From the IMG/VR virus record IMGVR_UViG_3300028581_000175, positions 1-29,369 of that record: a stretch of DNA of 29,369 bases. The stretch is one strand, 5' to 3'. Source of the DNA: a virus. The position numbers and the translations under genes were made by a program. Below are positions 3,555-22,730 of this stretch, in pieces. Numbering within the stretch: the first letter of the stretch is position 1; each line of letters opens with the position of its first letter. The notes under the pieces are model-generated. The model had not been told where the DNA came from. It worked only from the letters and a program-made list of their open reading frames with translations, and did not search any database.

Positions 3555-4724
3555 TCAATCCCAATCCGAGTTGTCGACTGCGCCGTTGGACTGGATGCGG
3601 ACGTGGGCTTCCACGAAGTGGGCCATCGTCGTGAACGTGCGGGCCTTGGCGGCGATCTTCTCCGCATAGCGCAGGCGCTCGGTGATCGCCTTGATGCCGT
3701 TGTCCTTGGCCAGCTGGCGCAGCAGGTCGAACGGGATCTCGTTGATGTGCTCGCCGTCCACGATCAGGCTGAGGGTTTTCTTCTTCGCCGGAAACTCGAC
3801 CCCGTAGTGGCCGAGGATCGCGGTGATGTCGTCCTTGCTCGGCATCTTCGGCAGGTGGAACTTATGGACCCCGCGCCGCAGGAGCTGCTCCATCTCGCCG
3901 TGGGTGCCGCCGCGCATTTTCTCCAGGAGGAGTTCCGTGCCGCAGAGCAGCATCCCGCAGCCGACCTCGTCGTAAATCTCCCGGATCACTTCCAGACAGG
4001 CGAAGAAGGAATTGAGCCGGTAGGTGTATTGGAGGAGGTGCAGCTCGTCCAGGATCAGCAGCGTGTCGGGCGAGAGGGCGCGCTTGATGCGGTCAATCGA
4101 ATCCGCCGTGTTCGCCTTGTCGGAATTTCCGCAGCGCTCGTTGATCCGCTTCACCATCCCGCCCAGGCCGGTGGCCGCTTTCATGCGGACGTAGATCGTG
4201 CGGCCGTGGTTGTTATCGGCGGCGAATTTTTCGAGCGCCCAGGTCTTCCCGATGTGCGAGCGGCCCCAAAGGAAGACCGGCGTCTTGGATTCCCGTGCCA
4301 GGTTGCAGGCGTGGAAGATCCGCTCGGCGGTCGGTGTGAGGATGAACTCTCCGATGGGCGTGTAGGCTTTGCGCTGCCGGGCCAGCCAGGCGCGCGACGC
4401 ATCCACCATTTTCGGCGGGACTTCCAGGCGCTCGCGTGTCGTGGCGTTGATGTATTTGCCCGAGTAGATCCGGTAGATCGTGGACGGGTCGAAGTCGATG
4501 GCCTTCGCGAACTCCGGACGGCTGACCGGGTGCTTCGCGTCGATGCACCACAGGAAACAGGCGATCAGGATCTCCTTCGCGTCGTGTGAGCAATGCGCGA
4601 GATTCATGCGGATGTCGTGGAGCGAGAAGTTCCAGGACGCGCGCACGTTGTTGCCAGAATTGGCCTGCGGCTCGGGTTGATTGTTGTCTTCGGGTTCGGG
4701 TGACGTGGTGGTGTCTTTGTTCAT
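3555..4724 (-). CDS. MuB-like AAA+ transposition ATPase (target selection)
   Basis: A 389-aa protein. The Walker A motif is GRSHIGKT (residues 154-161), Walker B is LLILDE (222-227), a sensor-like LLCGTE is at 259-264 and an Arg pair at 283-284 could be the finger. The N-terminal part has a helix-turn-helix-like stretch (VSRPEFAKAIDFDPSTIYRI, 67-86). In Mu, MuB binds DNA with ATP, delivers target DNA to MuA and protects the phage's own DNA from self-integration. The gene directly follows the transposase, as in Mu. Length is somewhat above Mu B (312 aa) because of the N-terminal part. Confidence 0.9.
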   Translation of the reverse strand: MNKDTTTSPEPEDNNQPEPQANSGNNVRASWNFSLHDIRMNLAHCSHDAKEILIACFLWCIDAKHPVSRPEFAKAIDFDPSTIYRIYSGKYINATTRERLEVPPKMVDASRAWLARQRKAYTPIGEFILTPTAERIFHACNLARESKTPVFLWGRSHIGKTWALEKFAADNNHGRTIYVRMKAATGLGGMVKRINERCGNSDKANTADSIDRIKRALSPDTLLILDELHLLQYTYRLNSFFACLEVIREIYDEVGCGMLLCGTELLLEKMRGGTHGEMEQLLRRGVHKFHLPKMPSKDDITAILGHYGVEFPAKKKTLSLIVDGEHINEIPFDLLRQLAKDNGIKAITERLRYAEKIAAKARTFTTMAHFVEAHVRIQSNGAVDNSDWD

Positions 4725-4739
4725 AAAGTGGTGGTGGTG

Positions 4740-6593
4740 CTAAAGGAGGGCTTCGGAGCTGATGCGCGAAGGCGCGCCAGGCATCTCGTTTTCGTCGTCG
4801 TCCAGGAGGGCCGCGCTGGAGACCTTGCGGAGCTTGCGGGCCGTGGCGCGGTCGCCGGATTCCACGAACGTGCGGCGGGCCTGCAGGGCCTCTGCAGCGC
4901 GCGGGTCACCGGCTGGGAGATTTTCCATAGCGGCGATCTGTGCGCCGCGTGCGATCTGGGTGGAGTTGCCGCGCCCGTCGCTGACTCGGGAAATGTTCGT
5001 GCCCTGCTGGAGACCGAGGTTGCGGAACTCGGAGCGGACGGCTCCGGCGTATCCGCCTTTGGTGCGGTTCTTGGCGCGGTCCGAGTAGTCGAGCTGGGGC
5101 GCGTCGGGCTCGAAGGGGATGATGCCGTAGCTCTGGCCGTGCTTGCTCTCGTAGTCGAGGCGGTTGCTGTCGCTGCTCTCGGCGTCGAAGACGCGGGCTC
5201 CGGCATGCGGGTTGGCGGGATCGAAGCAGACGAGGAGCCGGTAGCCGCGCCCGAGGTGGGCAAGTTCACCGGGAACGGCGAAGGAGAAGGTATGGTTGTA
5301 GTGCTCGACCTTGCAGCGGACGTGGGCGCCGGTGATGGGCCGGATCTCGCGGTAGGGCTGGAAGAGGTAAGCCTGCTGGTCGGGCAGCGCGGCGAGCGGC
5401 TGGGCCTCGATGTCGCGAGCGAAGTTTTCCATGGGCACGCCCTGGATGACGCGGCCCATTTTATTGCGGAGGTTGAACTTCTCCATCGCACCGTTGACGC
5501 GCTCGGCGATATCGCTGATGTGCGGGAAGCCAGCGTTTTTCGGATGCATGCGGCCGGCTGTGCATTTGAGCATGGCGGCGGTGGCCTTCTCGTATTCTCC
5601 GCGTTCGCGCCCGATGGTGATGCCGTCGAGGGAGAGGATGGTCTGGAGCATGTCGAAGCTGCCTTCGATGACGCCTTTGGCTTTTGGGCTGTGGACGTAG
5701 TGGAGGGCGACAGCGTCGGAGATCGAGGCGACGACCTGCTTTTCCTTGTCGTCGTTCACGCCCTTGACTCCGCGCACGGCCTTGGATTTCCAGATGCCGC
5801 GCTCCAGGCGGAACCCGTGGCGCGGGATGCCGTTGAACTGGCAGATGGAGCCGAGGAAACGGACGATGTCTTCGGCGCGGTAGGCGTCGCGGACCCGACC
5901 GATGAGATCGAAGCCGATCCAGCGGGCGGTGGCGGTGTCGATGCAGGCGAGCATCTGGCGGCCGAGGCGGACGCCGAACATGTCGGAGAGTTCGTCCCCG
6001 CCGTAGGGCCACTCATACCAGAAGGGCTGGTTGAGGCTCATGTCGTCGCACTCGAAGAGGTCGCCGCCAGTGAGCGGATGCTCGACCCCGGCTGAGTCCA
6101 CCCAGACATTGTCGCGGTATTGCGTGGCGACGTGCAGGTTGAACCGCTTCGGCCCCCGGGCGAGGTCGCTCTCTTCGCCGGTGACACGGGCGGCGCGCAG
6201 CAGGGCCTTGGGATAGTTGCGGCGCGAGCGGCGCGAAATGATGAGGGTGCGGATCTCGGGCGAGCAGACGGGATCATCGGCGAAGGCTTCGATGCCGTAG
6301 AGCATGGAGCCGCATTGCGCGACGAGGCGGCGCAGGACTGCGCGCTCGGCGTCGCTGATGGGGAGGGTATCTGCCGCGCTCTTCTTTGGCTTCGGGAGCT
6401 TGCGCTTGTCGATGAGTGCGTCGTCGCCCGCGCGCTGCCAGGAGTAGAAGAGCATTTCCAGCCGTTGCTTGGAAAAGCCGATGCGGGCTGAGAAGGCGGC
6501 GAGTCCGCTGGTCAGGTGGTCGGCGGCTTCGAGTGCCTCCATGATCGGGCGCAGCGTTCCGATCCTCTCGCGCTGGTAGGCGTCGAGTGTCAT
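4740..6593 (-). CDS. MuA-like DDE-type transposase
   Basis: A 617-aa protein that would cut the phage ends and join them to target DNA for integration and replicative transposition. The N-terminal part holds HTH DNA-binding segments (ARIGFSKQRLEMLFYSWQ). The RNase H-like core has FECDDMSLN (Asp 183/184) and ACIDTATARWIGFD (Asp 219). GIPRHGFRLERGIW follows at the place where Mu A has GIP..DN, and KGVIEGSFDML (Glu 310) matches the third catalytic residue. The expected second catalytic Asp is Glu 264. A Mu transposase C-terminal beta domain follows (residues about 395-500). The start is set at 6593 by ATGA overlap with the DUF3102 gene. Confidence 0.9.
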   Translation of the reverse strand: MTLDAYQRERIGTLRPIMEALEAADHLTSGLAAFSARIGFSKQRLEMLFYSWQRAGDDALIDKRKLPKPKKSAADTLPISDAERAVLRRLVAQCGSMLYGIEAFADDPVCSPEIRTLIISRRSRRNYPKALLRAARVTGEESDLARGPKRFNLHVATQYRDNVWVDSAGVEHPLTGGDLFECDDMSLNQPFWYEWPYGGDELSDMFGVRLGRQMLACIDTATARWIGFDLIGRVRDAYRAEDIVRFLGSICQFNGIPRHGFRLERGIWKSKAVRGVKGVNDDKEKQVVASISDAVALHYVHSPKAKGVIEGSFDMLQTILSLDGITIGRERGEYEKATAAMLKCTAGRMHPKNAGFPHISDIAERVNGAMEKFNLRNKMGRVIQGVPMENFARDIEAQPLAALPDQQAYLFQPYREIRPITGAHVRCKVEHYNHTFSFAVPGELAHLGRGYRLLVCFDPANPHAGARVFDAESSDSNRLDYESKHGQSYGIIPFEPDAPQLDYSDRAKNRTKGGYAGAVRSEFRNLGLQQGTNISRVSDGRGNSTQIARGAQIAAMENLPAGDPRAAEALQARRTFVESGDRATARKLRKVSSAALLDDDENEMPGAPSRISSEALL

Positions 6594-7390
6594 TTCCCGT
6601 CCTCCGAGAGGCCGAGTTCTGCGGGCGACAAGTTTTTGTCCCAATCGCGGATCTTGCTGGGGACGATGTGCCGGGCGCGGCAGATGTCGTCGAGTTTTTT
6701 GGCCCAGAGCTTGACGAGGTCGGCGACGTTGGCGAGTTCCACCTCGGGGAGCACTTCCCAGCGGCGTTTGCTGTGGAGGTAGTTTTCCTTGAGGCTGACG
6801 AGGCCGAGCTTATACCAGTCCATCGCCTTTTTGAGCGCGTCGTCGAATTCCTTTTCCGGGTCGGTGCGCCGCTTCGTTCCGTTGAGCCGCGTTCGCTTGC
6901 CTCCGTTGTTTTCGCGGGCGTCGCCGAGGTCGAGCAGGAGCTGGGTCCAGGAGCGGTTGCCGATGTATTTGCTCGCGGCCTCCACGACCGGGTTGCTCAT
7001 GTCGAGCTGGGCACCGCTGATCTCGGGCAGGTTGGTTGCAAGATCCCCGAGGAGCAGGCTCTGGGCGTCAAATGTGCAGGGGCCTGCACATTTGAGCTTC
7101 TTGGCCAGTTTCTTGTCGCTGACGGTGGCAAGAAAATCATTGCCAGCCTGCATGCGCTGTGCTGCTGCCCGATACGAGTTCGGGAAATGTTCCTTCACCC
7201 AAGGCATGAAGGCTCCGTGCTCCAGTTTGCGCTTGGCCTCGATGAGCACGAGACCGTGAAGGAGGCGGCAGATGCCTGCTGTGTTCTCATGGAGGTCGCC
7301 CGCGCGGTCGAGGGCCTTGCCCGCCTCGGCGAGCTGGGGGATGGTCATTGCCGAAATATTCCCGGTGGAGGTGGGCTGGAGGGTCTTCAT
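6590..7390 (-). CDS. DUF3102-type phage protein
   Basis: A 266-aa protein. Residues about 34-86 match the DUF3102 pattern: LVLIEAKRKLEHGAFMPWVK then EHFPNSYRAAAQRMQ, i.e. a helix, the G.F..W....F..S.R.AQR.M signature, and another helix. DUF3102 proteins are found in phages and plasmids and are thought to bind DNA through an HTH-like unit; their role is not established. The C-terminal half is helical and charged. The start at 7390 has GGAGG upstream and overlaps the preceding stop as ATGA. A perfect 28-bp palindrome lies within codons 99-108. Confidence 0.75.
   Translation of the reverse strand: MKTLQPTSTGNISAMTIPQLAEAGKALDRAGDLHENTAGICRLLHGLVLIEAKRKLEHGAFMPWVKEHFPNSYRAAAQRMQAGNDFLATVSDKKLAKKLKCAGPCTFDAQSLLLGDLATNLPEISGAQLDMSNPVVEAASKYIGNRSWTQLLLDLGDARENNGGKRTRLNGTKRRTDPEKEFDDALKKAMDWYKLGLVSLKENYLHSKRRWEVLPEVELANVADLVKLWAKKLDDICRARHIVPSKIRDWDKNLSPAELGLSEDGK
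7068..7095. repeat. 28-bp palindrome (13-bp perfect arms) inside the DUF3102 gene
   Basis: TCAAATGTGCAGG (7068-7080) and its exact reverse complement CCTGCACATTTGA (7083-7095) flank a 2-nt GG centre. It encodes the LKCAGPCTF part of the DUF3102 protein. The length and perfection make chance unlikely in 29 kb; a protein-binding site is a reasonable hypothesis. Confidence 0.85.
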
Positions 7391-10084: not shown

Positions 10085-10299
10085 AGAAGCTCACTATGAT
10101 ATTCTGGGGCTTCTTGGCCTTTCACGCGGAAGCGCGCGAGCAATGGCGCGTCGAGCGCTACGCTGAAATGGAGCGTGCCGGTGTGGTCCAGATCGGGACA
10201 TCCGTTCCCGAGCGACGCAACTCCTGGCTACCACGTATCACGCCCGGCTGGCCGTTGCGCGGTGGGAAGTGGCCCATTAAATGGGAGGGCACATTCTAA
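10081..10299 (+). CDS. Small exported protein of the lysis module
   Basis: A 72-aa product with a signal-peptide-like N-terminus (MKKLTMIFWGFLAFHAEA, cleavage likely near AEA) and a mature part of about 54 residues rich in Arg, Trp and Pro. It lies between the membrane protein and the endolysin, where spanin-type or regulatory lysis proteins occur, but there is no lipobox, so it is not a standard outer spanin. Starts by ATGA overlap and ends by TAATG overlap. Confidence 0.55.
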   Translation: MKKLTMIFWGFLAFHAEAREQWRVERYAEMERAGVVQIGTSVPERRNSWLPRITPGWPLRGGKWPIKWEGTF

Positions 10300-18332: not shown

Positions 18333-18787
18333 ACATCGAAATCACAGGGATGCAAGCTGTCGTTGATCGGCTGGACCCGCGCGAGATGCTCTCCCGCGTG
18401 GCGCGGGGGATGGACAAGGGGAACCAGCTCACGCTCTCCTATATCCAGAGGAACAAACTTTCGCAGAAGGGGGCGACGACGCTGGCCGTGCGGTCAAATC
18501 GCGGACGTTCCAGCTCCCGGGCCTCGCTCGCCGTGATACGAGGTGACGGGGTCGAAAGCACTATGGGCACAAATGTGCCTTACATGGCTGTGCACGAATT
18601 CGGCTGCAAGCCCTTCACGATCCGCGCCCGCAATGGCAAGGCCCTGCGCTGGGGGAATGCCAGCGGCGTCCACTTTGCGCGCACGGTCCGGCATCCTGGC
18701 TTCCCTGCCCGCCGTATGTTTGCCAGCGGGATCGAGGAATGCGCTGAAATCTACAACCGCAAGATCGGGGAGGAACTGACGAAATGA
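18329..18787 (+). CDS. Head-tail completion/tail protein (HK97 gp10 / Mu gpG type)
   Basis: A 152-aa protein. Two helices (MQAVVDRLDPREMLSRVARG) lead to a basic loop, then VPYMAVHEFGCKPFTIRARN, a Gly/His block typical of HK97 gp10-like proteins (A..hEFG...), and HPGFPARRMFASGIEECAE, the 'hPG..ARPf' box of the same family. It forms part of the head-tail joint or tail completion. Typical length for the family; ATGA coupled on both sides. Confidence 0.78.
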   Translation: MNIEITGMQAVVDRLDPREMLSRVARGMDKGNQLTLSYIQRNKLSQKGATTLAVRSNRGRSSSRASLAVIRGDGVESTMGTNVPYMAVHEFGCKPFTIRARNGKALRWGNASGVHFARTVRHPGFPARRMFASGIEECAEIYNRKIGEELTK

Positions 18788-19212
18788 GCACGCTGGGAAA
18801 AATGCCGGAAGATGTGAAGGCGCTCATTGAGGCATCGCCGATCATGCCGCAGATCCCGGTGATCGTGCGGGAGCGGGGGCAGATCCTGAATGACCTTGAG
18901 ACCGTGCTTGCGGGTCTGGCAATCGGCGTTTACGTGCTGCCGATCCTGCCGGTCGCTCCAATCCAAGGTGCCCCGTTTATTTTCTTCCAGCGGGCAGAGG
19001 TGCGCGTGCGCGTCATCGAGAACCGAAAACTGAACGCTACCGGAGTGGACGCCTACCAAGTCGCCGAGGCCGTGTGCTTGGCGCTCCAGGGGAGCAACCC
19101 CGGAGACATCCTCGCCGCGCCGCTGGAAGTCGCAACCTTTGAACTCAACGAGGATGCACAGGGGATCTCGCTCGACTGCATTTTCCACGCCGCTTTCCAA
19201 CTCAATCCATGA
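18784..19212 (+). CDS. Tail terminator-like protein, copy 1 of a duplicated gene
   Basis: A 142-aa protein in the place expected for a tail terminator/joining protein. It is clearly paralogous to the 142-aa protein at 22302: both share GA.FIF..R.E.RVR.I, N.TG.D, LAL.GSNPG..LA and D.IFHAA.Q in the same order. The mixed alpha/beta pattern (VYVLPILPV, AEVRVRVIEN) fits tail terminator folds, but the assignment is by context. Copy 1 stands between the gp10-like gene and the fibre cassette. Confidence 0.65.
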   Translation: MSTLGKMPEDVKALIEASPIMPQIPVIVRERGQILNDLETVLAGLAIGVYVLPILPVAPIQGAPFIFFQRAEVRVRVIENRKLNATGVDAYQVAEAVCLALQGSNPGDILAAPLEVATFELNEDAQGISLDCIFHAAFQLNP

Positions 19213-19805
19213 AACTGTTTTTCAATAAAGTCACCGGCATCCTGGGCGCGTCGGCAACGGCTTCCACGAATGTCCAAAAGATCACCGTCAAGCGATACCA
19301 GGACGTCGAGGTCGAGCTGACCCCAGTGAAGGCGGACGGGACCATAGAACTCTTCGCGACCGGGAGCACCGGCCTGCTGGTCGTGAAGACGGTCAATGAC
19401 TTCACGGGCACGGCCAAGCTTCTGGACACAACCTGGGACGCTCCCACTCTCGACGGCCGGGGCTACACGTTCGCCTTTGTGGCCGTGAGCGCCGGGATCG
19501 ACACGGCCCTGGGAACGGACCCCTCCAAGACGTTCGCACTGGAGATCGTTATCGTTGAAAGCGGGAAGCGGATCGTCCTGCCGACGATTCAGCTCGTCAT
19601 CGAAAACAACTACTACCGCGAGGACGAGCCGGTTCCTGAAGATCCAGATCCTCCCTACCCGCTGCCAGGCGAACTCGTCACGCAGGGGACCATCTTCGGC
19701 GCGGTCCGGATCTCGGCCGCAGGACTCGAAATCAAAGACACCACCACAAACACCTGGCGTCTCGTCACCTTCAATGCCGGGGAACTCACCTTTACGACTT
19801 TATGA
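19209..19805 (+). CDS. Beta-rich fibre-associated/adaptor protein
   Basis: A 198-aa protein. Residues about 20-140 are beta-rich (ITVKRYQDVEVELTPVKADG, then KTFALEIVIVESGKRIVLPT and IQLVIENNYYRED), a layout I know from N-terminal domains of baseplate upper proteins and fibre-associated proteins of phages. A proline-rich linker (PVPEDPDPPYPLPGELV) and a short C-terminal strand repeat follow. By position it may attach or extend the fibre encoded next. ATGA coupled on both sides. Family call by eye. Confidence 0.55.
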   Translation: MKLFFNKVTGILGASATASTNVQKITVKRYQDVEVELTPVKADGTIELFATGSTGLLVVKTVNDFTGTAKLLDTTWDAPTLDGRGYTFAFVAVSAGIDTALGTDPSKTFALEIVIVESGKRIVLPTIQLVIENNYYREDEPVPEDPDPPYPLPGELVTQGTIFGAVRISAAGLEIKDTTTNTWRLVTFNAGELTFTTL

Positions 19806-21508
19806 AAATCGGAAAACTCATCTCTCAAAGCGGCCGGATCGCCGCCCTGACTCTCGTCGCCGGTGGCGTCGCCTCCCTGGCATTTCTGGCCATCACATCG
19901 CCAGCGGTCGGGCAGACGAACGTGGTCACGAAGACGCTCACTCTCGACACGAATGGCCTGGTCACGAAGCCCACAAACTTCTGGGCCACGAATGCGGCCG
20001 GGATCACGAACGCGGTCGGGACGAACTACGCCACGGCCGCCCAGGGCACGCTTGCGGGTTCCGCGCTGCAGCCAGGCACGGCGATCACCAACGTCTCCGG
20101 CCTGCAAGCGGCGCTCGACGGCAAAGTGGCGACGAACGATTCCCGGCTCACCAATTCCCGTGCGCCGTCCGGATCTGCTGCAGGGGATCTGACTGGAACC
20201 TATCCCTCGCCAACTCTCGCCACCAACGGCGTCACGGCCGGAGCATACGGATCGCAGACCAACACGCTCAGTGTGACCGTGGACGCAAAGGGCCGCGTCT
20301 CCGGGATCTCAGCCAACAGTCCGATCACCCCGGCCAGCATCGGGGCCGCGACCGCCGCCCAGGGAACTCTGGCGGATAGCGCCGTGCAGCCCGCGCGAAC
20401 TATCTCGACCACGGCTCCGCTCACAGGCGGCGGCAACCTGACTGGCAACCTCACGCTCGCAATCTCGTCGGCAGCTACAAACTCAGTCGGCGCGGTCCAG
20501 CTTGCCACGGATGCCGAGATCCAGACCGGAACGGATACGGCGAAGGCCGTGCGACCCTCCGGCCTCGCTGCCTGGTGGACATGGATCAAAACGCAGGCGC
20601 AGACGTTCGCGGGTCCGTTCACGCTGACAGGGAATTTCACCGCTGGCGATGCGGCAGGGGATGAGGCGGTTATCAACGACGACGATCCTCGCGCACCGAA
20701 CCTTACGAGCACGACCTATGCCTCGGCCGCAGATGATAAGGTGATGCTGAATGGCAATGTGGGGGATGCTAAATATCTTCCTCGGATCTCTGGGGATAAC
20801 TCGGACGCAGTAATGGCGATGGCCCTGGCCCAATACCCTGCGCTCCGGCCCGGCACCACATGGCAACTAGCGAACAATGGCACATGGTCAAATTGGGCAG
20901 CTACCTCGACCAGCTCTTGGGTGCAATTACTTAAGCAGCAGAGTGTCGGCAGCGCTGCTGGCTGGGCGCGCGCTGGCTCTTATGGATTTATTCAGAAGTC
21001 CGGGCAATCCGGATCAACTCTTGCGGGTCGCGGATTTACATTTGCATGCTGGCTAAACGCGCCTGGAGATTCTGCCGCCATCGGCCTCGCGACTGATATA
21101 TATTTCGGTGCGCAGTTGACCGAGACCGGAGGGGCATTAACCGCGCGTGGGCTACGAGTCAGGATTGAAGGAAATACCCCTACCAGCAACATCAAGGTCA
21201 CCTCCGCGATCCACGATGGCACGAGCGAGACATTAAGCTCCGCGAACGTGAGCGCGTATGGGTCGGCTGCATTCATTGTGCGCTGGCTGCCTGTAGGATC
21301 AACACCTGCGGCGGGGTCGAAACTTGAGGTGTGGGGGCGTGCGATGGACGGATCGGCAACTCTAATCACGACCGCCACCCTTTCTGGCAGCCTCGGGTCA
21401 GGGTCTTTTGCTGGCTCAGCTCTGGCAATCGTCGCGAGCAGCGCGGGCACAACACCGGGCTATGCCGCCAACTGGGAATTTGGAGGAATGACCGTGTATG
21501 TCCACTGA
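19802..21508 (+). CDS. Tail-fibre-like protein with N-terminal export signal
   Basis: A 568-aa protein. Residues 1-38 look like a signal peptide or membrane anchor: basic start, then AALTLVAGGVASLAFLAITS, then AVGQ. Residues about 75-245 are tail-fibre repeats (TAAQGTLAGSALQPGTAITN, GDLTGTYPSPTLATNGVTAG, VDAKGRVSGIS, then TTAPLTGGGNLTGNLTLAIS). Residues about 340-568 form a beta-rich, Ser/Thr/Gly-rich domain (GRGFTFACWLNAPGD onward, ending in WEFGGMTVYVH) that could be a lectin-like receptor-binding head. The 3' half is visibly AT-richer. Fibres assemble in the cytoplasm, so an export signal is unexpected. Confidence 0.7.
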   Translation: MKIGKLISQSGRIAALTLVAGGVASLAFLAITSPAVGQTNVVTKTLTLDTNGLVTKPTNFWATNAAGITNAVGTNYATAAQGTLAGSALQPGTAITNVSGLQAALDGKVATNDSRLTNSRAPSGSAAGDLTGTYPSPTLATNGVTAGAYGSQTNTLSVTVDAKGRVSGISANSPITPASIGAATAAQGTLADSAVQPARTISTTAPLTGGGNLTGNLTLAISSAATNSVGAVQLATDAEIQTGTDTAKAVRPSGLAAWWTWIKTQAQTFAGPFTLTGNFTAGDAAGDEAVINDDDPRAPNLTSTTYASAADDKVMLNGNVGDAKYLPRISGDNSDAVMAMALAQYPALRPGTTWQLANNGTWSNWAATSTSSWVQLLKQQSVGSAAGWARAGSYGFIQKSGQSGSTLAGRGFTFACWLNAPGDSAAIGLATDIYFGAQLTETGGALTARGLRVRIEGNTPTSNIKVTSAIHDGTSETLSSANVSAYGSAAFIVRWLPVGSTPAAGSKLEVWGRAMDGSATLITTATLSGSLGSGSFAGSALAIVASSAGTTPGYAANWEFGGMTVYVH

Positions 21509-21521
21509 CGCCACTCACAAT

Positions 21522-21938
21522 ATGAAAAAAACCATCGCACTCCTCGCGGCCTGTGTGGTCGCGCTCACCCTCACCGCAACCGCTCAGTCGCTCCTCACCG
21601 ATCCGCCGATCCCCGCCGCACAGGCCCGGGCGATCCGTGCGGCCGAGAACGCGCAGGGCCTCCGCAACTCCATCCTCGGCGGGCTGCGGCACTCGATCAC
21701 CGATCTCTGGTCGGAGGACTACGCTGCCAACGTCGCGACCGCGCAGGCCCTCGGACCGAAGGCTGTTGAGCTTTTCACGCTTTACGAATCCTTCATGGCT
21801 CCAATCCGCGCTCTGCTGCTCGCCTGCGGCGACACAGCATCTGTGACCGAACTTGATGCCCTGGCTGCTCGCGTTCCTGCCCACACGAAAAACCAAGACG
21901 GAACCGTCACCATCACGGAGCCCACTCCCGAGCCCTGA
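21522..21938 (+). CDS. Exported protein of unknown function
   Basis: A 138-aa product with a clear signal peptide (MKKTIALLAACVVALTLTAT, cleavage near ATA/QS). The mature part is mostly helical (PAAQARAIRAAENAQGLRNS, LGPKAVELFTLYESFMAPIR) and ends in a Thr/Glu/Pro-rich tail. I do not recognise the family. The start at 21522 is preferred to an ATG 8 codons earlier that overlaps the fibre gene, because only the former puts the signal peptide at the N-terminus. One nt separates its stop from the lipoprotein ATG. Confidence 0.6.
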   Translation: MKKTIALLAACVVALTLTATAQSLLTDPPIPAAQARAIRAAENAQGLRNSILGGLRHSITDLWSEDYAANVATAQALGPKAVELFTLYESFMAPIRALLLACGDTASVTELDALAARVPAHTKNQDGTVTITEPTPEP

Positions 21939-21939
21939 G

Positions 21940-22305
21940 ATGATCCGCCTCCTCGCCATCGTCTGCCTTTGCCTATCGGCCTGCGCCGCGCGGCCTCCGG
22001 TCGCTGCACCCGCGTTTTCCGGGCAGCTTCGGAATGCATGCGTGGCCGAGGCGGCGGCGATGGTCGAGGGATTGCGCGGGGCCGGGATCGAATCGCGTGC
22101 CCTCCTGATCTCCACGCCAGCTTGGAATCATGCCGTCGCGCTTTATCTCTACCCATCGGGCGACAACCGTCTGTGGGTCTGGGATGCCAACTGGAAAAGC
22201 ATCCGCGTCCGTGCCTGGTGGGATGATCCCGCCAGCATCGCGCGCGCCTGGATCACGGCAACCAACCGGAGCCTGCCAGTCACCTCAGCCACTTTCCTCG
22301 AATGA
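21940..22305 (+). CDS. Lipoprotein with transglutaminase/cysteine-peptidase-like Cys-His-Asp pattern
   Basis: A 121-aa product. MIRLLAIVCLCLSACAARPP is a lipoprotein signal with lipobox L-S-A-C (Cys 15). In the mature part, NACVAEAAAMVEGLRGAGIE puts a Cys (34) at the head of a helix, WNHAVALYLY gives a His (64) and RLWVWDANWK an Asp (82). Cys-helix, His-strand, Asp-strand in this order is the transglutaminase/papain-like layout. It may cleave or crosslink peptides at the cell envelope. Fold and activity are inference; the domain is short for the family. Confidence 0.6.
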   Translation: MIRLLAIVCLCLSACAARPPVAAPAFSGQLRNACVAEAAAMVEGLRGAGIESRALLISTPAWNHAVALYLYPSGDNRLWVWDANWKSIRVRAWWDDPASIARAWITATNRSLPVTSATFLE

Positions 22306-22730
22306 CATCGACCACAGAAATTCCCGTCGCGGTGCTTGATCTGCTCAGGCGGGCCGAGGGCATTCCGGCCGGTGTTGAGTTCATCGAGCGGAAGGAAAAG
22401 AGCATCGAGAACGATATCGAAGCCAGCCTGGCGAAACTCGGGGCCTGCATGTTTGTCATGCCAGTGAAGCCGGTGGAAGTCCAGGAGGGGGCCGATTTCA
22501 TTTTCGTCAAGCGCGGTGAGCTGCGCGTTCGGATCATCGTGGACCCGACGATGAACGAAACCGGGATGGACAGTCCCGAGTTGGCAGCGCAGGCCCGGCT
22601 CGCTCTTCACGGATCGAATCCCGGCAATCTCCTCGCTGACAATCTTCGCCTGGCAAACCCTCCGGTGGAGGAAGTCGAAGACCCATCGGCCGTGGTGATC
22701 GATCTGATCTTTCACGCGGCCTACCAATAA
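22302..22730 (+). CDS. Tail terminator-like protein, copy 2 of a duplicated gene
   Basis: A 142-aa protein paralogous to the one at 18784 along nearly its whole length (IENDIEASLAKLGACMFVMP matches ILNDLETVLAGLAIGVYVLP). It lies immediately before the tail tube gene, the standard place of a tail terminator, so this copy may keep the original role. It is coupled by ATGA to the lipoprotein gene; 21 nt separate it from the tube gene. Confidence 0.7.
   Translation: MTSTTEIPVAVLDLLRRAEGIPAGVEFIERKEKSIENDIEASLAKLGACMFVMPVKPVEVQEGADFIFVKRGELRVRIIVDPTMNETGMDSPELAAQARLALHGSNPGNLLADNLRLANPPVEEVEDPSAVVIDLIFHAAYQ

Follow-up and report, generated by a model that had tools for sequence, protein, structure and literature searches.

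Phage tail fibres are taught as products of cytoplasmic assembly. The present analysis concerns a cassette of three consecutive genes, predicted to encode an exported fibre-like protein, a small exported protein and a lipoprotein, in the IMG/VR virus record IMGVR_UViG_3300028581_000175, the whole analysed stretch of which (29,369 bases) is referred to as the window. The closest described systems include those of phage T5, of T1-phi80 and of streptococcal prophages. Purified pb5 blocks infection by T5, and Llp, whose gene adjoins that of pb5, prevents secondary infection and phage loss on debris (PMC9586334). PblB, a tail protein of a pneumococcal prophage, carries a predicted signal peptide and a galactose-binding end, and binds viable bacteria once released (PMC4508584).

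Like Llp of T5 and Cor of T1-phi80, the lipoprotein of the window is a small phage lipoprotein encoded beside a receptor-binding gene and expected at the outer membrane, and self-protection of the phage is the leading idea for both. Unlike these, it comprises 121 aa with an invariant Cys-His-Asp core, is expected to be expressed late instead of early, and is paired with an exported fibre; a profile search of Protein Data Bank (PDB) chains with this lipoprotein gave no Llp match among the solved chains. PblA and PblB resemble the fibre-like protein, as a functional analogy only, in that they are tail-fibre-like, have a glycan-binding end and occur at the bacterial surface. They differ in their Gram-positive hosts and in their release, which in S. 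mitis occurs via phage-induced permeabilisation, and no lipoprotein partner has been described for them.

The gene of the fibre-like protein (568 aa; 19802..21508, + strand) was delimited by an ATGA overlap and the protein characterised by a Sec-type signal, a family motif and a distal domain shared with a T7-type fibre. Its ATG at 19802 overlaps the upstream stop codon (ATGA, −4 nt) and no in-frame start codon lies further upstream, hence the hydrophobic N-terminus is real coding sequence. This N-terminus, MKIGKLISQSGRIAALTLVAGGVASLAFLAITSPAVG^QTN, combines charge, a long hydrophobic core and AVG^Q; residues ~1–37 (19802..19912, +), ending SPAVG^QTN, are the predicted Sec signal peptide, with the cleavage site placed by eye. 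The mature protein then begins with the motif TLTLDTNGLVTKPTNFWATN (residues ~45–64), which with its flanks covers 19913..20011 (+) and was delineated by alignment across the family described below. Searches of Pfam, PHROGs, PADLOC and NCBIfam with the three cassette proteins gave nothing above threshold, PDB profile searches nothing significant, and INPHARED only a short stretch of the fibre in one Microcoleus phage. Lacking any Pfam or PHROG match above threshold, the fibre has no N-terminal virion-attachment domain of a known type, but a signal followed by a new motif.

The sequence VMVDTNGVVxxPxNFWxxN, situated just after the signal, defines an undescribed protein family, in whose alignment the motif residues G, P, N, F and N are invariant and V and W nearly so. 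Besides the window, it was found in ~25 other uncultivated phages and prophages, comprising T7-like, Mu-like and other phages as well as Verrucomicrobiota prophages. Members were collected with a DNA pattern for the second half of the motif, which is blind to signals; it gave members in viral contigs, in two Verrucomicrobiota genomes and in one genome labelled Burkholderiaceae, the remaining matches of the DNA patterns being short frames or unrelated ones. Further prophage members came from 388 Verrucomicrobiota genomes searched with a profile, and these few are not signal-blind, as the profile held signal columns. INPHARED, queried with the family N-terminus, returned chance-level matches only, and a literature search of open-access full texts yielded no description of Verrucomicrobiota phages whose tail fibres bear a signal. 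A motif-bearing exported beta-helix-like protein is also encoded beside glycosyltransferase genes at L058:1-1656, apparently outside a phage.

Export signals (n-region charge, hydrophobic core, small residues at −3/−1) were called by a simple fixed rule of our own, which was applied equally to control open reading frames (ORFs) of these phages. The rule found a signal in 21/21 family members, one of which (L007) was counted in on account of its position rather than the motif. Among the control ORFs, 29/234 passed at the annotated start and 40/234 with any start in the first 40 codons (12–17%, the controls including some false ORFs). A prospective scan, for which the pattern covered the motif's first half, yielded five new members, all with a signal, which brings the total to 26/26 family proteins, nearly all from signal-blind motif searches and not all independent of each other. 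Chance hydrophobic N-termini are excluded by this difference from the controls. Among the new loci, an adaptor-like gene immediately precedes the family gene in L082 and L085, and in L083 the next gene downstream encodes another exported protein. The hydrophobic stretches vary in sequence across the family while charge, hydrophobic core and usually an AxA/G-Q end are retained, as in true signal peptides; the automatic cleavage point is imprecise for several members and clearly too distal for L048. In L018 the corresponding protein has the signal and lacks the family motif.

It is accordingly very improbable that these N-termini are artefacts, i.e. non-functional stretches due to coincidence or a wrong start. 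The use of a fixed rule in place of a dedicated predictor and the length of the window signal (~37 aa) would speak for such an error, yet the excess over the controls holds in the prospective set too, starts are fixed by ATGA overlaps, and many relatives have short signals of 17–20 aa with AxA/G-Q. Export of the fibre is strongly supported by this conservation, and actual export and cleavage are what we infer from these sequences. The initial annotation had described three consecutive late genes with export signals, and the ORFs were recovered in that place and order with a Sec signal (AVG^Q), a second Sec signal and a lipobox (LSAC); its further proposal, that the fibre is exported and not built into a tail in the usual way, agrees with the predicted Sec-type signal in all 26 members.

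Distally, the window fibre is built from receptor-binding-type parts, as judged from homology to a fibre tip, from module sharing and from a structural model. Residues 348–568 are 40% identical over 222 aa (E = 4e-39) to the tip of the signal-less gp17/T7-type fibre of L012, the N-terminus of which matches a PHROG tail protein (6e-36). Compared with such a T7 gp17-type fibre, the window fibre has a Sec signal and its own N-terminal motif, and no gp17 attachment domain. An AF2 model of the C-terminal domain (residues 342–568; 20825..21505, +) reached a pTM of 0.68 and a mean pLDDT of 58 and was used for the fold class only; its Foldseek matches were ConA-like folds, namely PL7 alginate lyases, the phage J-1 Dit CBM2 (5ly8), the lectin VIP36 and viral ConA/LamG proteins. 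Taken with the homology to a fibre tip, this low-confidence model suggests a ConA-like lectin/glucanase-type fold, and the earlier description of a receptor-binding kind of protein is thereby borne out, at the level of a modelled fold and of distal modules shared with true tail fibres. Alignment of this domain with the T7-like exported proteins by hhalign was not significant (prob 1.9), and homology of the window tip to their tips is not claimed.

Across the family the distal parts are highly diverse, including tail-collar, SGNH/GDSL hydrolase, fibre-repeat, propeller-like (by eye) and lectin-like types. The member at L061 has a tail-collar domain (PF07484, E = 9e-19), SGNH/GDSL hydrolase domains occur in L052 and L055 with scores below the Pfam cut-off, modules of the L009 protein match fibres in L018 and G012, and other members match PHROG tail fibres. 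Two of the motif-bearing exported genes stand in tandem in L052 (809-2830 and 2844-4385), and L055:2032-4071 is exported likewise; the SGNH/GDSL domains belong to these loci.

The second cassette gene (21522..21938, +) encodes a protein of 138 aa with the Sec signal MKKTIALLAACVVALTLTATAQ, starting at ATG 21522 (an alternative ATG at 21498 would add 8 residues). It belongs to no database family and has no match in INPHARED phages, and it is kept in L007 (53%) and L009 (69%). Small exported proteins unrelated to it follow an exported fibre in the same manner at L083:7680-8075 (reverse-complement coordinates) and L059:2362-2769.

The third gene (21940..22305, +) starts at ATG 21940 and encodes the 121-aa lipoprotein (MIRLLAIVCLCLSAC) with the lipobox LSAC-A; under a strict rule no other lipobox ORF was found in the window. 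Homologues occur in more than ten phages. In an alignment of 11 phage homologues, ten of them 33–83% identical to that of the window, the lipobox is retained in all (two residues followed by A-C: LSAC, LTAC, LAAC, LNAC or VAAC), its Cys being invariant after a hydrophobic signal, and Cys34, His64 and Asp82 are invariant as well. At every locus with enough sequence the lipoprotein gene comes after a fibre gene, either immediately or with one or two small genes in between; its relatives in viral contigs include T7-like phages where the gp17-like fibre and the lipoprotein are separated by a short signal-bearing protein. INPHARED phages gave no match to it, and in a first genome-contig scan no match was confirmed.

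The AF2 model of the lipoprotein has a core of ~90 or more pLDDT (block means 80–95) and the helix-strand order of transglutaminase/papain-like enzymes, a class that dominates the fold matches, all of them sub-threshold (PF13471, E = 0.037; PF01841, E = 0.042; best Foldseek E = 0.15). As in these enzymes (PF13471, PF01841), Cys stands at a helix start and His and Asp on the following strands, all invariant; it differs from them in being minimal (core of ~90 aa), below the Pfam cut-off and lipobox-anchored. The invariant Cys-His-Asp triad suggests that the lipoprotein is a putative enzyme of this class, reduced to a minimal size and located at the outer membrane. Relatives of it are also encoded on Verrucomicrobiota chromosomes (L064, L065 and L066), where, apparently, they are exported and lie outside phage regions; their existence suggests a host origin of the phage gene.

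A lipoprotein encoded in a late operon could also serve in lysis or release, where exported glycan-binding or glycan-degrading proteins together with an outer-membrane enzyme would loosen the envelope or extracellular matrix to let progeny out, and the lipoprotein would replace or aid the outer-membrane spanin. Consistent with this are its standing as sole lipobox ORF of the window, the SGNH hydrolase domains in L052 and L055, and the order in T7-like relatives, where the lipoprotein precedes small membrane proteins a few kb ahead of holin-like and peptidase genes. We regard it as improbable, since the window endolysin (10281, PHROG lysis) is >11 kb away, the conserved neighbour of the lipoprotein is the fibre and not the endolysin, and many family members have no lipoprotein. 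Identity with an Rz1-type o-spanin was rejected: NCBIfam NF038368 scored 12.9 bits against a cut-off of 27 in one relative only and did not match the window lipoprotein.

The cassette (fibre 19802-21508, 138-aa protein 21522-21938, lipoprotein 21940-22305) sits within a late head-tail operon, as seen from the intergenic distances along it and its flanks (−4, +13, +1 and −4 nt) and from the absence of any promoter-like site between 17500 and 24500 of the window. A neck/tail-completion-like protein (18329; PHROG 26, E = 0.0015) flanks it on one side, and tail-tube-like (22752) and tape-measure (24212) genes on the other. Directly upstream of the fibre, a 198-aa adaptor-like protein (19209..19805, +) is encoded, so labelled from its position and appearance; it resembles, by eye only, the N-domain of a baseplate upper protein and has no Pfam or PHROG family above threshold. 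This protein is 44% identical to a 230-aa protein at the equivalent place in L007, and its C-terminal segment is conserved in L009 and L044. A tail-terminator-like protein, named by position, is encoded downstream (22302..22730, +) and is a paralogue (40% identity) of the product of 18784-19212. The two copies thus bracket the cassette and look like a duplication around an insertion; in L007 and L009 a single copy, the downstream one, was seen.

PHROG matches of the window comprise a transposase and a DNA transposition protein on the minus strand, an endolysin at 10281 and a large terminase, which with the tape-measure protein identify a Mu-like tailed phage by sequence; being Mu-like, with transposition genes, it is probably temperate. 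The MuA/MuB-like transposition genes occupy positions 3555-6644 (minus strand), as in a transposable phage, probably of Verrucomicrobiota. Since prophage members of the fibre family were found in genomes of this phylum and the window portal has a 39% relative in one such genome, Verrucomicrobiota bacteria are most likely the hosts. None of the INPHARED isolate phages carries cassette genes. At the end of the 42.9-kb relative G004 lies, on the other strand, a FecR-like (by eye) exported gene (L070, G004:41838-42872), probably host DNA flanking an integrated phage.

Since the genes are packed into a late operon, they more probably take effect late in infection than during lysogeny. This bears on the idea of a lysogenic-conversion adhesin, by which an exported fibre would decorate the lysogen in the manner of PblB and alter its attachment to surfaces or glycans. 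Such a role would fit the precedent of PblB and the presence of an exported lectin-like protein in a phage that, being Mu-like, is probably temperate; we hold it for quite unlikely, as there is no promoter-like site of its own, the gene overlaps late genes, and T7-like phages, which are presumably lytic, have these proteins too.

Export is well supported, function is not. Tentatively, and with a likelihood a little short of one half, we favour a receptor-binding protein that is exported, acts on the envelope and covers glycans of the host late in infection. The cassette would then produce Sec-exported proteins late in infection of the Verrucomicrobiota host. The fibre would consist of a cleaved signal peptide, a short conserved N-terminal motif for some partner, a shaft and a lectin-like tip, and after export would act in the envelope or outside the cell. 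There it would most likely occupy the surface glycan bound by phage tips, and such masking could keep progeny from being lost to the dying cell and its debris or to a neighbouring cell already infected. Hydrolase-like tips, which take this slot in related phages, could strip such glycans. The lipoprotein would be an outer-membrane, enzyme-like accessory of the same receptor-handling locus and the 138-aa protein an exported accessory; lectin activity, receptor masking and contacts among the three proteins are what we infer for this locus.

Counted in favour of this reading are at least two adjacent exported proteins also in L007, L009, L059, L052, L054, L035/G009 and L083. In T7-like phages a complete gp17-type fibre is present besides the exported protein, which in these phages measures only 183–275 aa and has no long shaft. 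In G004, the tape measure is followed by a separate protein of 856 aa that has no signal and, by eye, fibre-like repeats. The conserved signals, the ConA-like fold with the J-1 Dit module among its matches, and the precedents of pb5, Llp and PblB count for it as well. Two features that the initial annotation had proposed were not upheld. One obligate complex of the three proteins was rejected, as exported fibres often occur without the lipoprotein (for example in L009, L038, L049, L052 and L085) and the lipoprotein occurs beside signal-less fibres (L012, L023, L027, L004). A decoy copied from the phage's own fibre was likewise dismissed, since nothing else encoded by the window or by G004 resembles the exported fibre.

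Several observations weigh against an exported masking protein. The fibre/adaptor slot is where the family genes are found, and their start codon often overlaps the stop codon of the upstream adaptor or gp17-like fibre, as expected of a virion partner; one member (L061) carries the tail-collar domain. The gp17-like fibre end YLRTDG..TTLYVR...W.PL was present in 4/5 T7-like phages with the exported protein and in 0/5 without it, which hints at a two-part fibre. The exported fibre shows no homology to the same phage's own tip proteins, so that a shared receptor specificity would be an assumption, and before lysis the fibre would have to cross the outer membrane. The full form of the above fibre end, YLRTDGDxSTTLYVRAxxxWKPL, was read at the C-termini of the gp17-like fibres in L018, L021, L025 and L037, was seen only where an exported partner gene follows, and could be a docking site for that partner.

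These points lead to the main alternative, a virion part, in which the protein would be the distal tip of a two-part fibre with the upstream adaptor (198 aa here) or gp17-like fibre as the proximal part. It might be exported and join particles when membranes break at lysis, or the signal might be skipped or kept as a hydrophobic docking peptide. In its favour are the position of the gene and the overlap of its start with the stop codon of an adaptor or fibre gene. In addition, the upstream proteins have common C-terminal ends that accompany the exported partner, and distal modules are exchanged with fibres of the virion type (L012 for the window, L018 and G012 for L009; the tail collar of L061). 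In the relative L080, a comparable slot holds a 118-aa adaptor-like protein and then an 875-aa fibre (PHROG tail) without a signal. However, this alternative would need fibre assembly after Sec export, and we know of no tail fibre assembled in this way. The signal features are conserved without sequence conservation, which fits recognition by signal peptidase and not a docking surface; in addition, the same phages have other fibres and the neighbouring proteins are exported too. We therefore rate a virion tip as possible yet rather unlikely.

The broader statement that covers both outcomes is, in our estimate, probable: Verrucomicrobiota phages of different, unrelated types would share Sec-exported fibre tips whose lectin, hydrolase and collar ends are interchangeable and whose place of action is outside the cytoplasm. 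They would be secreted to mask or clear receptors, or else be loaded on particles at lysis only. Such a Sec signal on fibre modules across T7-like, Mu-like and other phages of one phylum implies an extra-virion function of fibres or a new assembly route, and either of them, if true, would be a new use of tail-fibre modules. The signal together with VMVDTNGVVxxPxNFW provides a simple signature for finding such genes, and the small lipid-anchored enzyme-like protein is an object for testing. For a phylum almost without cultured phages, the locus offers a candidate mechanism of self-exclusion or release.

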